Shown here piece after piece: positions 46,140 to 54,088 of a stretch of 64,000 bases of DNA (its first letter is position 1; each line of letters starts with the position of its first letter). Source of the stretch: Allonocardiopsis opalescens (GTDB taxonomy: Bacteria; Actinomycetota; Actinomycetes; Streptosporangiales; Streptosporangiaceae); contig NZ_PVZC01000009.1 in the NCBI RefSeq assembly GCF_003002095.1, positions 310,001-374,000 on the forward strand, written 5' to 3'. The notes below the pieces were generated by a model that was given only the letters and a program-made list of their open reading frames with translations, was not told the DNA's origin and made no database searches. A program made the translations under genes and the position numbers.

Positions 46140-47696
46140 GCGGCTATCCCCGCGTCTGCGGGGAGCATCCGGCGATAGAGGCCAAGCCCAGGCCCCGGGC
46201 GCTGTGCCATCCCTGCGCGGGGGAGAACTGGATGGGCTGGCCGGTCCCGGCGCACTGCCGGGGACCATCCCCGCGCGCGGGAAGCACGGCCGATGACCTT
46301 CTCAACCAGGTCCAGAGCCGGGACCATCCCCCCGCGCGCGGGGAGCACCAGCCGCAGCCACGCGCGAGACCGTTGGTCGAGGGACCATCCCGCGCGCGCG
46401 GGGAGCACCAGGTCCGATCCGGCGTGCTCCTGCCAGAGCCGGGACCATCCCCCCGCGCGCGGGGAGCACTCGGGCTACCAGCCAACGGATCGTGACCCCT
46501 CGGGACCATCCCCGCGCGCGCGGGGAGCACGCGAGCAGCCCCAGCCGCACCCTGGCCTCCACGGGACCATCCCCGCGCGCGCGGGGAGCACATCAGCACG
46601 CTGCCGTCGCGGCCGTAGGCCACGGGACCATCCCCGCGCGCCCCGCGCGCGCGGGGAGCACGCCAGATGATCGCGTAGGCGATGCGTTCCCACGGGACCA
46701 TCCCCGCGCGCGCGGGGAGCACAGCGACCCGACCGGCACGGCGTAGCGCCACCTGGGACCATCCCCGCGCGCGGGGAGCACCGGTCGGCGCTCGCCGACC
46801 TGCCCGCCGCTCTGGGACCATCCCCGCGCGCGCGGGGAGCACATCTGCACGGCGTTCGCGCCCAGCACGAGGTTGGGACCATCCCCGCGCGCGCGGGGAG
46901 CACGCCGATCACATGACGGTCGAGCTGCGCGCACAGGGACCATCCCCGCGCGCGCGGGGAGCACCGGCCGGCGGGGTGCCGGGCGAGGACATGGTCGGGA
47001 CCATCCCCGCGCGCGCGGGGAGCACCGGCCGGCGGGGTGCCGGGCGAGGACATGGTCGGGACCATCCCCGCGCGCGCGGGGAGCACTCGCGGTCGATCAC
47101 CGACAGGTCGTAGCTGATGGGACCATCCCCGCGCGCGCGGGGAGCACACGTTCAGGTTCGGGCGCCTGGTCGAGGTCGTGGGACCATCCCCGCGCGCGCG
47201 GGGAGCACGGCGGCCGGCCTTCCTCGCGGACGCGGCCGCGGGGACCATCCCCGCGCGCGCGGGGAGCACCCGACAATCCCGCCGACAATCCAGGTCAGGA
47301 TGGGACCATCCCCGCGCGCGCGGGGAGCACCGGTGCTCGGAATGGGGGGCGGGGTCAGACACGGGACCATCCCCGCGCGCGCGGGGAGCACAGCGAATAG
47401 GAGTGGTAGAAAATACGGCATCAGGGACCATCCCCGCGCGCGCGGGGAGCACGCCGGGCGCCCTGGTGTCATTGACTGTTGATGGGGACCATCCCCGCGC
47501 GCGCGGGGAGCACGAAATAGCCTCCGTACCGATTAGCAAGGTACAGGGACCATCCCCGCGCGCGCGGGGAGCACGCTGCAATATCCTTCTTAGCCCTACT
47601 CTGATATGGACCATCCCCGCGCGCGCGGGGAGCACCGGGCCTGAGTCGCGGCCGCGCCGTCGGCGTCGGGACCATCCCCGCGCGCGCGGGGAGCAC
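46140..47696 (-). CRISPR. Type I-E-like CRISPR array, 26 repeat units
   Basis: Twenty-six repeat units, mostly 29 bases, are spaced by 25 spacers of about 32 bases (period 61). The core is a perfect palindrome CCCCGCGCGCGCGGGG flanked by GGGACCAT and AGCAC. In the usual actinobacterial I-E orientation the array reads on the minus strand, with the leader at the right. The two left-most units (46140, 46201) are degenerate and several next ones vary in length, as expected at the old end. One unit (46624-46661) is 38 bases long. Spacers at 46965 and 47026 are identical. No cas gene is in the window. Confidence 0.97.
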
Positions 47697-47713
47697 CCTC
47701 GGCGACCTGGGGC

Positions 47714-47743
47714 GTTATCAGCGGATCACCTCGGTTTTGGCAA
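47714..47743 (-). promoter_or_regulatory. Leader promoter of CRISPR array
   Basis: On the minus strand TTGCCA (47743-47738) and GATAAC (47719-47714) are 18 bases apart, close to the sigma-70 consensus. The predicted start is about 10 bases before the first repeat (47696). This supports minus-strand transcription of the array and a leader to its right. Confidence 0.6.
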
Positions 47744-51025: not shown

Positions 51026-51502
51026 ATGAGCACGGCCGACACCCGGCTGGAGCCCGGCGACACCGCACCCGACTTCACCCTGCCCGACGCCGACGGCACC
51101 CCCGTGTCACTGAGCGGGCTGCGCGGGCGGCGGGTGATCGTGTACTTCTACCCGGCGGCCAGCACGCCCGGCTGCACCAAGGAGGCCTGCGACTTCCGCG
51201 ACAACCTCGCCGAACTCGACCGCATCGGCATCAGCGTGCTCGGCATCTCCCCCGACGCCCCCGCCAAACTGGCCGCCTTCCGCGAGGCCGAGGGCCTGAA
51301 CTTCCCGCTGCTGTCCGACCCCGAGCGCAAGGCCCTGCACGCCTACGGCGCCTTCGGCGAGAAGAAGAACTACGGCCGCCTCATCCAGGGCGTGATCAGG
51401 TCCACCTTCGTCATCGACGCCGAGGGCCGGGTCGAGAAGGCGTACTACAACGTCCGCGCCACCGGCCACGTCGACCGGCTCCGCCGCGACCTGGGACTGT
51501 AG
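51026..51502 (+). CDS. bcp: Thioredoxin-dependent peroxiredoxin (BCP)
   Basis: A 158-residue peroxiredoxin. The active segment is YFYPAASTPGCTKEACDFRD, with peroxidatic Cys and a second Cys five residues later as in the BCP class. APDFTLPDADG and STFVIDAEGRVEKAYYNV are further signatures. It reduces hydroperoxides with thioredoxin in the cytoplasm. AGGAGG lies eight bases before the ATG. Followed 87 bases on by a VOC-family gene. Confidence 0.95.
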   Translation: MSTADTRLEPGDTAPDFTLPDADGTPVSLSGLRGRRVIVYFYPAASTPGCTKEACDFRDNLAELDRIGISVLGISPDAPAKLAAFREAEGLNFPLLSDPERKALHAYGAFGEKKNYGRLIQGVIRSTFVIDAEGRVEKAYYNVRATGHVDRLRRDLGL

Positions 51503-51589
51503 CGGCCTGCGCGGGCGGCGCCGTCCGGGTGCCGCCCGCGCCCCCGGTCCGCGGTGGCGCCGGAGCCGGGCGCTTGGCAGGATCGCCGG

Positions 51590-51994
51590 GTGGCCCATCT
51601 CGGACTGGTGACGGTGGTCGTGCGCGACTACGACGAAGCCATCGCCTTCTACGTACGCGCCCTCGGCTTCGAACTCGTCGAGGACACCCGCCTCGGCGGC
51701 GGCAAGCGCTGGGTGGTCGTCGCCCCGCCCGGAGCTCGCGGCAGCGCTGTACTGCTGGCCCGCGCCGCAGGCCCCGAGCAGGAGACCAGGATCGGCGACC
51801 AGACCGGGGGCCGGGTGGGCTGGTTCCTGAGCACCGACGCCTTCGACCGCGACCACGCGCGCATGCGGGCCGCCGGGGTCGAGTTCGAGGAGGCGCCGCG
51901 GCAGGAGCCCTACGGCACGGTCGCGGTCTTCCGCGACCTCTACGGCAACCGCTGGGACCTGATCCAGCCGCGACCGGCACCGGACGGCACCTAG
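51590..51994 (+). CDS. VOC (glyoxalase-like) family protein
   Basis: A 134-residue protein with the vicinal-oxygen-chelate fold pattern: LVTVVVRDYDEAIAFYVRAL at the start and GTVAVFRDLYGNRWDLIQPR at the end. The GNRWDL end motif is typical of bleomycin-resistance/glyoxalase-like members. Possible metal ligands are few, so catalysis is uncertain. GTG start chosen, as residues before it are not family-like. Confidence 0.85.
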   Translation: MAHLGLVTVVVRDYDEAIAFYVRALGFELVEDTRLGGGKRWVVVAPPGARGSAVLLARAAGPEQETRIGDQTGGRVGWFLSTDAFDRDHARMRAAGVEFEEAPRQEPYGTVAVFRDLYGNRWDLIQPRPAPDGT

Positions 51995-52015: not shown

Positions 52016-53029
52016 CTACCCCACATAACCGCGCGGGTTCTTCGTCTGCCAGCGCCACGCGTCCGCGCACGCGTCGTCGACCGTGCGGCGGGCCGACCAG
52101 CCCAGCTCGCGGTTGGCCCGTCCCGGGTCGGCGAAGCAGACCGCGATATCGCCCGGACGGCGCGGCGCCACCTCGTACGGCACCCGGCGGCCCGACGCCC
52201 GCTCGAAGGCGGCCACCGCCTCCAGCACCGACGTGCCCGTCCCCGTGCCCAGGTTGAACACCGACAGGCCCTCGGCCGCGTCCAGATGCTCCAGCGCCGC
52301 CACATGGCCCAGCGCCAGATCCACCACGTGCAGGTAGTCGCGCACACCCGTGCCGTCAGGAGTGTCGTAGTCGTCGCCGAACACCAGCAGCCGATCCCGC
52401 GCACCCGCCGCCACCTGCGCGATGAACGGGAACAGATTGCTCGGCACCCCCTCCGGATCCTCGCCGATCAGCCCGCTCTCGTGCGCGCCGATCGGATTGA
52501 AGTAGCGCAGCACCCCGATCCGCCACCCCGGATCCGCCGCCGCCAGATCGCGCAGCACCCGCTCACCCACCAGCTTGGTGCCCCCGTACGGATTCGTCGC
52601 CCGCAGCGGCGCCGACTCGTCCACCGGCACCCGGTCCGGATCCCCGTACACCGTCGCCGACGAACTGAACACCAGCCGGCGCACCCCGTGCGCCGCCATC
52701 GCCTCGCACACCGACAGCAGGCCGTCCACGTTGTTGCGGTAATAGCGCAGCGGCTCACGCACCGACTCGCCCACCGACTTCAGACCCGCGAAATGCATCA
52801 CCGCGTCGAAGCGCCACCGCCCGAACACACCCTCAAGCACTCCGCGGTCCGCGCAGTCGCCCACCTCCAGCGGCACCGACGCCCCCGCGATCGCCGCGAC
52901 CCGCTCCGCCGCCTCACGCCGGCTGTTCCCCAAGTCGTCCAGCAGCACCACATCATGGCCCGCCGCCACCAGCTCCACCGCCGCATGGGTGCCGATATAG
53001 CCGCAACCACCCGTGATCAGCACGCGCAT
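52016..53029 (-). CDS. galE: UDP-glucose 4-epimerase
   Basis: A 337-residue extended SDR. It has the NAD site MRVLITGGCGYIGTHAAVEL, FSSSATVYGDPDRVPVDE with catalytic Ser, and the Tyr-Lys pair in NPYGGTKLVGE. The LRYFNPIGAHESG region binds the UDP-sugar, as in GalE. It interconverts UDP-glucose and UDP-galactose for cell-wall and capsule sugars. Length is normal. Monocistronic, next to a tRNA gene. Confidence 0.93.
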   Translation of the reverse strand: MRVLITGGCGYIGTHAAVELVAAGHDVVLLDDLGNSRREAAERVAAIAGASVPLEVGDCADRGVLEGVFGRWRFDAVMHFAGLKSVGESVREPLRYYRNNVDGLLSVCEAMAAHGVRRLVFSSSATVYGDPDRVPVDESAPLRATNPYGGTKLVGERVLRDLAAADPGWRIGVLRYFNPIGAHESGLIGEDPEGVPSNLFPFIAQVAAGARDRLLVFGDDYDTPDGTGVRDYLHVVDLALGHVAALEHLDAAEGLSVFNLGTGTGTSVLEAVAAFERASGRRVPYEVAPRRPGDIAVCFADPGRANRELGWSARRTVDDACADAWRWQTKNPRGYVG

Positions 53030-53089: not shown

Positions 53090-53163
53090 GGGGCCGTAGC
53101 CCAACGGCAGGAGGCGAACGGTTTAGGTCCGTTACAGTGCGGGTTCGAATCCCGCCGGCCCTA
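53090..53163 (+). tRNA. tRNA with UAG anticodon and short variable loop
   Basis: A 74-base cloverleaf. Acceptor stem 53090-53096 pairs with 53156-53162 (first pair G-U). The D arm has a three-base-pair stem, the anticodon stem is 53117-53121/53129-53133, and the T arm is normal with TTCGAAT. The seven-base loop TTTAGGT gives anticodon UAG (CUA, leucine). The variable loop is only five bases, whereas leucine tRNAs have a long arm. No CCA is encoded. Folding is good, so it is a real tRNA-like gene, but its identity is unsettled. Confidence 0.8.
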
Positions 53164-54088
53164 CGCTCGGGTGTGCTCTTGCTTGCTCGCTTCGCTCGCT
53201 GCGCCGGCTCGCTTCGGCGTGCCAGCCCCGGGGGTACGACCCCCGGACCCCCGCGCCAGGGGCTCCGCCCCTGGACCCCGGTGGACTGAGGTGACGCTAG
53301 AACCGTTTTGAGCGCGGTTATAGGGGACTTGGGTCACCGCGTTACCCCCACTCCCGCCGGACCGAGATGACGTGCTCACCGTCGTGACCGCGGTTGTGGG
53401 GGAACAGGGTCACCGCGTTAACCCCACCTCCACCGGACCGAGACGACGCGCTCACCGTCGTGACCGCGGTTGTGGGGGAACAGGGTCACCGCGTTAACCC
53501 CACCTCCACCGGACCGAGACGACGCGCTCACCGTCGTGGCCGCGGTTGTTCTGGGGGCCGAGGTCACTACCACCCCACTTGCTTCGGTTCTGGTGCTCTG
53601 CGGTGTGGGCTTTGCTCGCTACGCTCGCTCGCCTGGTTCCGCGTGTATGGACGGCGGGGTTCTCGGACGCGGTGTGCGCCCTTGCTCCCTTCGCTCGCTT
53701 GGCTGCCGGTGTTGGTCTGCGGGTCTGTCTGGTCGTGGGTTCGGGGACCGGGGTGGAGACTCCTGGCCGGCGCTGTCGCGGTGACGGCGTGGGTGGTCTT
53801 TCGCAGCCTGCGCGACATGCTGAAGTAGACCCGGCCCGTCGGTACCGCCTGCGGCGCCGCCGCCGGGTGCTGAGGTCCACACGGCTCCACACACCTAGTT
53901 TATTCCACATGAAGGAAATGATGCGGATATCTATTGCAACCTGCGGAATGGAGCCGTAACTTGCCAGAAACCTGGTTGCCGCGTGCGGAATGCCCGCGCG
54001 GCACCCGGGAACCACGGGGGCCGATAGCGCCCGAGTCGGCGGCCTGGGGCCGGTGTGCTCCGGGCGCGGTGAGAAGGGCGGTGGTTCG
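53164..54088. other. Non-coding region after tRNA with tandem repeats
   Basis: A 925-base stretch with no supported gene. It has CTCGCT-rich segments at about 53180-53210 and 53610-53700, a run of 76-base tandem repeats (53284-53565), and an AT-richer stretch at about 53895-53960 that probably carries the promoter of the ABC operon. Open frames here are short and low in complexity. Confidence 0.6.
53284..53565 (+). repeat. 76-base tandem repeats, three copies plus a decayed one
   Basis: Copies start at 53337, 53413 and 53489 with a period of 76 bases. Copies one and two are nearly identical after the first 35 bases, and two and three after the first base. A decayed copy occupies 53284-53336. 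Each unit contains CCGGACCGAGA, GCTCACCGTCGTG and GTGGGGGAACAGGGTCACC or close variants. The third copy ends in a diverged block at 53550-53565. No protein is encoded. Confidence 0.85.

Follow-up and report, generated by a model that had tools for sequence, protein, structure and literature searches.

A class I tRNA-Leu(UAG) gene downstream of bcp is apparently the only reader of CUA in the draft genome of Allonocardiopsis opalescens

The bcp locus and its tRNA gene

The window, i.e., the whole 64-kb stretch of an A. opalescens contig that was analyzed, contains one tRNA gene, which follows a bcp-type peroxiredoxin gene. The features of this locus, in window positions, are as follows.

51026–51502, + strand: bcp-type peroxiredoxin gene (AhpC/TSA; Pfam PF00578), the conserved upstream neighbor
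51554–51994, + strand: glyoxalase-family gene (Pfam PF00903), between bcp and the tRNA gene
52016–53029, − strand: galE-type NAD-dependent epimerase gene (Pfam PF01370), between bcp and the tRNA gene
53090–53163, + strand: class I tRNA-Leu(UAG) gene of 74 nt, without an encoded CCA (ARAGORN; RF00005, 54.3 bits; class I model R2, 94.9 bits)
53124–53126, + strand: anticodon TAG, reading CUA (ARAGORN, anticodon at position 35; sequence)
53134–53138, + strand: variable loop ACAGT, 5 nt (class I), its last base being U48 (sequence)

ARAGORN called no other tRNA in the window (its call spans 53090–53164), and the gene does not form part of a dense tRNA cluster of the mobile-array kind. The leucine anticodon UAG and the five-base variable loop, both recognized in the initial annotation, are confirmed by the sequence and, for the anticodon, by ARAGORN. 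To our knowledge, bacterial leucine tRNAs are described as always bearing a long variable arm; the 5 nt found here fall short of the 10 nt or more of a class II arm. Covariance scoring, which had been proposed as a check, gave a match to the Rfam tRNA family RF00005 at 54.3 bits, well above the gathering score of 29, when the 50–56 kb stretch was searched, and the gene is thus a member of that family. Minimum-energy folding reproduces the acceptor, anticodon, and T stems; the standard D stem is missing from this fold, whose energy is unexceptional (z −0.90). The case for the gene thus rests on its covariance score and its conservation. Scans for promoters and terminators found none of the types covered.

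Direct reading gives A at position 73 and G1–U72 as the first pair. The initial annotation had pointed to this G–U pair as unusual; it is present, but among 26 class I UAG tRNAs of the same family the 1–72 pair is G–C in 17, G–U in seven, and A–U in two, and a class II tRNA-Leu(CAG) of the same genome (L014) likewise has G1–U72. The pair is therefore incidental. The variable loop, by contrast with the class II form, measures 5 nt in all 26 of these members.

Two repeat structures lie in the same window. A CRISPR-like array at 46259–47739 comprises roughly 22 repeats, most of them at a spacing of 61 bases, with the unit GGGACCATCCCCGCGCGCGCGGGGAGCAC, and one of its repeat–spacer units is present in two exact copies, at 46936 and 46997. 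A tandem 76-bp repeat (53302–53549; 3.3 copies, 91% match) begins some 140 bp past the tRNA gene.

Conservation and synteny

The survey of relatives suggested earlier bears out that the tRNA is conserved. A DNA match at E 0.001 was obtained in 36 of 60 relatives, some of the matches being UAA genes; the best loci of 29 relatives (L044–L072) carry UAG in 28 cases and UAA in one, as called by ARAGORN. In the window, 1.6 kb separate bcp from the tRNA gene, with the glyoxalase-family and galE-type genes intervening. In same-family genomes chosen because they carry a class I UAG gene, bcp precedes the tRNA by 14–570 bp on the same strand in all 36 loci tested, and the stems of the tRNA are intact. 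For class I UAG genes in other families of the sample, bcp is present in 12 of 26 loci.

Class II tRNA-Leu(UAG) genes occupy the same place in other lineages. There, bcp was found in 15 of 29 loci, upstream on the same strand in 13 and within 700 bp in eight; these loci were 3 or 10 kb long, and the absence of bcp from the shorter ones means little. Even within the family of A. opalescens, one genome (G003) has a class II UAG gene 138 bp after bcp. Moreover, congeneric genomes carry opposite classes at the same locus: G205 (class II) versus G241 and G118 (class I), and G135 (class II) versus G235 (class I).

Leucine tRNA set of the genome

The genome is a 6.97-Mb draft in 22 contigs, 98.1% complete, and an RF00005 search of it located at least 50 tRNA places. 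Two class-specific covariance models were used to judge which leucine tRNA genes are absent, rather than the RF00005 listing: R2, built from 34 class I leucine tRNAs, and R3, built from 20 class II leucine tRNAs. R3 recovered four class II leucine tRNAs (CAG twice, GAG, and CAA) at 80–95 bits; its next match was the tRNA-Leu(UAG) at 53090–53163, at 56.9 bits, followed by non-leucine tRNAs. R2 scored the UAG gene at 94.9 bits and one UAA gene at 76.4 bits, these being the only genes in the genome above 60 bits, while the next match, at 59.1 bits, was a tRNA-Ala. The leucine set thus consists of class II CAG (two genes), GAG, and CAA and of class I UAA and UAG, one gene each. Tools that sort or score leucine tRNAs by the long arm may mis-rate such class I genes.

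The R3 model found neither a class II tRNA-Leu(UAG) nor a class II tRNA-Leu(UAA) in the 22-contig draft. A search for a second, class II tRNA-Leu(UAG) had been suggested in the initial annotation, and its result is decisive: since no such gene was found and the class I UAG gene is single, the tRNA at 53090–53163 is apparently the only one in the draft genome able to read CUA. It is probably an essential leucine tRNA for this codon. The codon is in use, with CTA accounting for 68 of 89,966 codons in 244 ORFs of the home contig, picked by codon-position composition.

These observations bear on whether the gene might be a pseudogene or the remnant of a phage, or might serve outside translation, a role raised in the initial annotation. 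Such a status would agree with the lack of a consensus promoter among the scanned types and with the abundance of class I relatives in phage contigs and tRNA arrays. On the other hand, the tRNA is the only CUA decoder found, its stems are intact and it stands beside the same chromosomal gene throughout the same-family loci tested, and bcp accompanies none of the 80 viral loci listed. This explanation is thus very unlikely, and a role outside translation is not supported. The tRNA is real, neither a pseudogene nor a spare copy, and is presumably expressed.

Two further genes of the genome deserve mention. A second tRNA-Ser(GGA)-like gene (L276, G000:C2:590560–590651; 93 nt by ARAGORN) lies about 130 bp after a tRNA-Leu(CAG), scores weakly against the class II leucine model, and has an odd D arm. 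U at tRNA position 33 is nearly universal, yet the class I tRNA-Leu(UAA) of the genome (L019, G000:C1:597780–597853) has C33. Among 13 same-family class I UAA tRNAs compared, C33 occurs in six and U33 in seven.

Mutual exclusion of the two classes

Strict patterns combining the D arm and the anticodon were used to scan 216 genomes of the class. For UAG, 37 genomes matched the class I pattern, 128 the class II pattern, none both, and 51 neither. If the two forms were independent, about 22 genomes with both would be expected; shared ancestry inflates this contrast, which is descriptive only, and Fisher values calculated from the counts, which take no account of relatedness, carry no weight here. 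For UAA, the counts were 103 for class I, 36 for class II, none for both, and 77 for neither. In the genomes examined, many actinobacteria thus appear to use a class I leucine tRNA for CUA; for UUA this holds for about half of the sample (103 of 216).

Five same-family genomes fell outside the class I UAG pattern. One is G003, which has the class II gene described above; the other four (G060, G095, G190, and G219) were missed by the pattern and have a class I UAG gene by the R2 model. Likewise, the class I UAA gene of A. opalescens escapes the UAA pattern because of its C33. At E 1e-11, the class-specific models showed neither a class II UAG nor a class II UAA gene in the same-family genomes G012, G021, G023, G031, and G095. 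R2 at E 1e-14 gave no class I gene in G002 and G014 and no class I UAG gene in G013 and G032. A class I tRNA-Leu(CAA) is also present in seven of 14 same-family genomes searched with R2 (loci L402, L407, L393, L411, L412, L410, and L403).

Determinants of leucylation

A single protein of the genome scores above the family cut-off for leucyl-tRNA synthetase (LeuRS; TIGR00396). For Escherichia coli, a 2023 review (PMC9976931) reports that LeuRS relies on A73, the A15–U48 pair, G18G19, A20a, and contacts between the D and T loops, that the sequence and fold of the long arm are immaterial, and that arm-less variants stay active. The tRNA-Leu(UAG) at 53090–53163 carries A73, A14, A15–U48, and the D/T core. 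The same elements are maintained in its relatives: U8, A14A15, and A73 occur in all 26 same-family class I UAG tRNAs compared and U48 in 23 of them. In an alignment of 34 sequences, whose columns were assigned to standard tRNA positions in the present analysis, there is no variation at U8, A14, A15, and A73, at the first G of the D loop, at the A of GGYA, or in the T-loop core, and U48 reaches at least 90%. The A15–U48 pair is not universal: among 39 rows compared (37 distinct genes, two of them read twice), four have G15, five lack U48, and two show both changes.

The single LeuRS would therefore be expected to charge this tRNA via A73, A14, A15–U48, G18–G19, and the D/T-loop core. None of these elements would need a long arm, and they are common to the class II leucine tRNAs of the genome. 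Once charged, the class I tRNA-Leu(UAG) would insert leucine at CUA. The congeneric sets that differ in class (G205 versus G241 and G118; G135 versus G235) offer a testbed for the requirements of LeuRS and for the dispensability of the arm.

The initial annotation had considered mis-charging, and a non-leucine amino acid such as lysine would leave CUA ambiguous or reassigned. The dual-identity tRNAs of actinobacteria provide a model for such a state. The class I body is compatible with it, and the combination of A14A15, U48, and A73, which in this genome is confined to the tRNAs of the five leucine anticodons and two lysine tRNAs, is shared with lysine. Against it, the determinants match those of the class II leucine tRNAs of the genome, and class II UAG genes hold the same bcp locus in other lineages. 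A dual-identity tRNA would also coexist with a normal decoder of the same codon; no class II tRNA-Leu(UAG) was found in the draft genome. The codons themselves provide a further line of evidence.

Meaning of CUA

Codon meaning was assessed in 1,614 ORFs from the commonest residue at homologous positions among partners that use another codon; loci below 60% GC were excluded from the pooled alignment. Leucine is the commonest residue at 49 of 69 CTA positions with such a partner when all sources are taken together. In class I bearers, the count is 37 of 51 (0.73), which lies among the leucine fractions of the other leucine codons in these genomes (CTG 0.62, CTC 0.67, CTT 0.75, and TTG 0.77) and far from those of the non-leucine controls GTA (0.07) and ACA (0.02). 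Class II bearers give 12 of 18, and the same-family class I sources alone give 12 of 20. A direct comparison of orthologs between the class I genome G241 and its class II congener G205 aligned CUA with leucine in six of six cases.

The genome of A. opalescens alone contributes two comparable CUA positions, one with leucine (one partner) and one tied between tyrosine and leucine (three each, plus one histidine), and in a direct ortholog comparison with G030 its single CUA aligned with histidine. The very small size of this sample is compatible with non-leucine charging. The pooled alignments support the placement of CUA at leucine positions in class I bearers as a group, the support being weak for this genome alone with its two positions. 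Because CUA in class I bearers behaves like other leucine codons, and given the leucine determinants known from E. coli, mis-charging is not supported and we regard it as very unlikely. The oddity noted at the outset, a UAG anticodon on a class I body, is thus real, but none of the explanations first offered for it, a decoding oddity included, finds support.

Comparison with known leucine tRNAs

The tRNA shares several features with bacterial class II tRNA-Leu(UAG): it decodes CUA, carries A14A15, U48, and A73, and stands downstream of bcp, as the class II gene does in several lineages. The difference lies in the variable region, 11–15 nt in all 24 class II tRNAs compared versus 5 nt here. The bldA tRNA-Leu(UAA) of Streptomyces is also dedicated to a rare leucine codon in a high-GC actinobacterium; it reads UUA and is class II.

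The closest precedent comes from members of the Mycobacterium mucogenicum clade, for which PMC6582537 describes a mobile tRNA cluster carrying a tRNA-Leu(TAG) whose variable loop is short, besides a normal copy with a larger loop. That tRNA likewise combines a UAG anticodon with a short loop in an actinobacterium. It is, in the account given there, an extra copy in a cluster, whereas the present gene is a single chromosomal one in conserved synteny and the only decoder of CUA found. In Mycobacterium tuberculosis, Leu-2, Leu-3, and Leu-5 have a long loop comparable to that of tRNA-Ser, according to PMC11541572. Animal mitochondrial tRNA-Leu, as outlined in PMC9976931, is charged by LeuRS without a long arm, much as would be the case here; it is organellar and structurally floppy, whereas the present tRNA is bacterial and a regular cloverleaf by covariance. 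In titles and abstracts of the open-licence papers searched, no class I or short-arm tRNA-Leu was described as the only tRNA by which a bacterium decodes a given codon.

Phages, tRNA arrays, and the origin of the gene

Class I tRNA-Leu(UAG) is widespread outside this family. The tRNA matched 35 phage records, and a scan of viral contigs gave at least 120 matches; all 80 viral loci listed hold a UAG tRNA-Leu of 73–78 nt, with a median of eight tRNAs per locus and at least three tRNAs in 70 of the 80. Plasmids gave no match at E 1e-5. The phage and array tRNAs, e.g., those of Gordonia phage GodonK and Streptomyces phage Manuel, have the same body and anticodon as the window gene; they lie mostly in tRNA-rich stretches and none stands beside bcp, whereas the window gene is single and near bcp. 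A pattern scan of named-species genomes found at least 120 stretches; 79 of the 80 loci listed carry a class I UAG gene (ARAGORN). Eight of these 80 hold at least four tRNAs, among them loci of Calothrix, two other cyanobacteria, a planctomycete, Xanthocytophaga, and Herbidospora. The tRNAs of five named loci recur without any difference in other genomes of the comparison; those of Planotetraspora (L163) and Sinosporangium (L175) match same-family genomes, which by itself would place the window probably in Streptosporangiales.

Taking the structure, synteny, and codon evidence together, we consider it very probable that the gene encodes a regular and apparently the only CUA-reading tRNA, that this leucine tRNA with a class I body is charged by LeuRS, and that it has replaced a class II gene at the bcp locus. 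Since both classes occupy this locus, the change would be a replacement or a conversion in place, the class I gene standing where a class II tRNA-Leu(UAG) stood. The donor may have been a class I leucine tRNA of the phage or mobile-array kind, or the gene may have been copied from a resident leucine tRNA of class I; replacements of class II by class I probably occurred in several actinobacterial lineages.

As for the route, an alternative that concerns origin and not function is that no replacement took place and that the class II gene beside bcp shed its variable arm and drifted. The occurrence of both classes at one locus agrees with this. So does identity calculated without the variable region, leaving out the UAA row L389 and sequences whose arms could not be placed: the same-family class I UAG tRNAs have mean values of 0.649 to class I UAA, 0.655 to class II UAG, and 0.664 to viral tRNAs, so that the identity to class II UAG is no lower than that to class I UAA. 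As calculated here, arm-free identity does not discriminate between origins. The D stem, however, is GCC/GGC in class I and GCG/CGC in class II, and in the class I UAG tRNAs both the D stem and the CG-UAG-CCCAA block follow the class I UAA, phage, and array tRNAs and not class II. We therefore favor gene replacement as the probable route, arm loss in place being a serious but less probable course.

A broader and, in our estimation, unlikely extension of gene replacement is that actinobacteria and their phages have in common a second form of leucine tRNA, of class I, and that LeuRS is naturally two-class, the decoders of CUA and UUA, and in some genomes UUG, having switched in place repeatedly, seeded by phage copies. 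If so, the switch may be of advantage, since the class I form would escape any protein that grips the long arm, be it a toxin, a nuclease of phage or host, or another protein.

Short leucine tRNAs of other anticodons were also encountered. In the many-tRNA loci L125, L150, and L165, leucine tRNAs with CAA, UAA, CAG, and GAG measure 73–79 nt; UAG is thus not the only anticodon with which the arm has been lost. The same-family genomes G003 (L400) and G095 (L406) have small tRNA clusters in which a tRNA-Leu(CAG) measures 74 nt.
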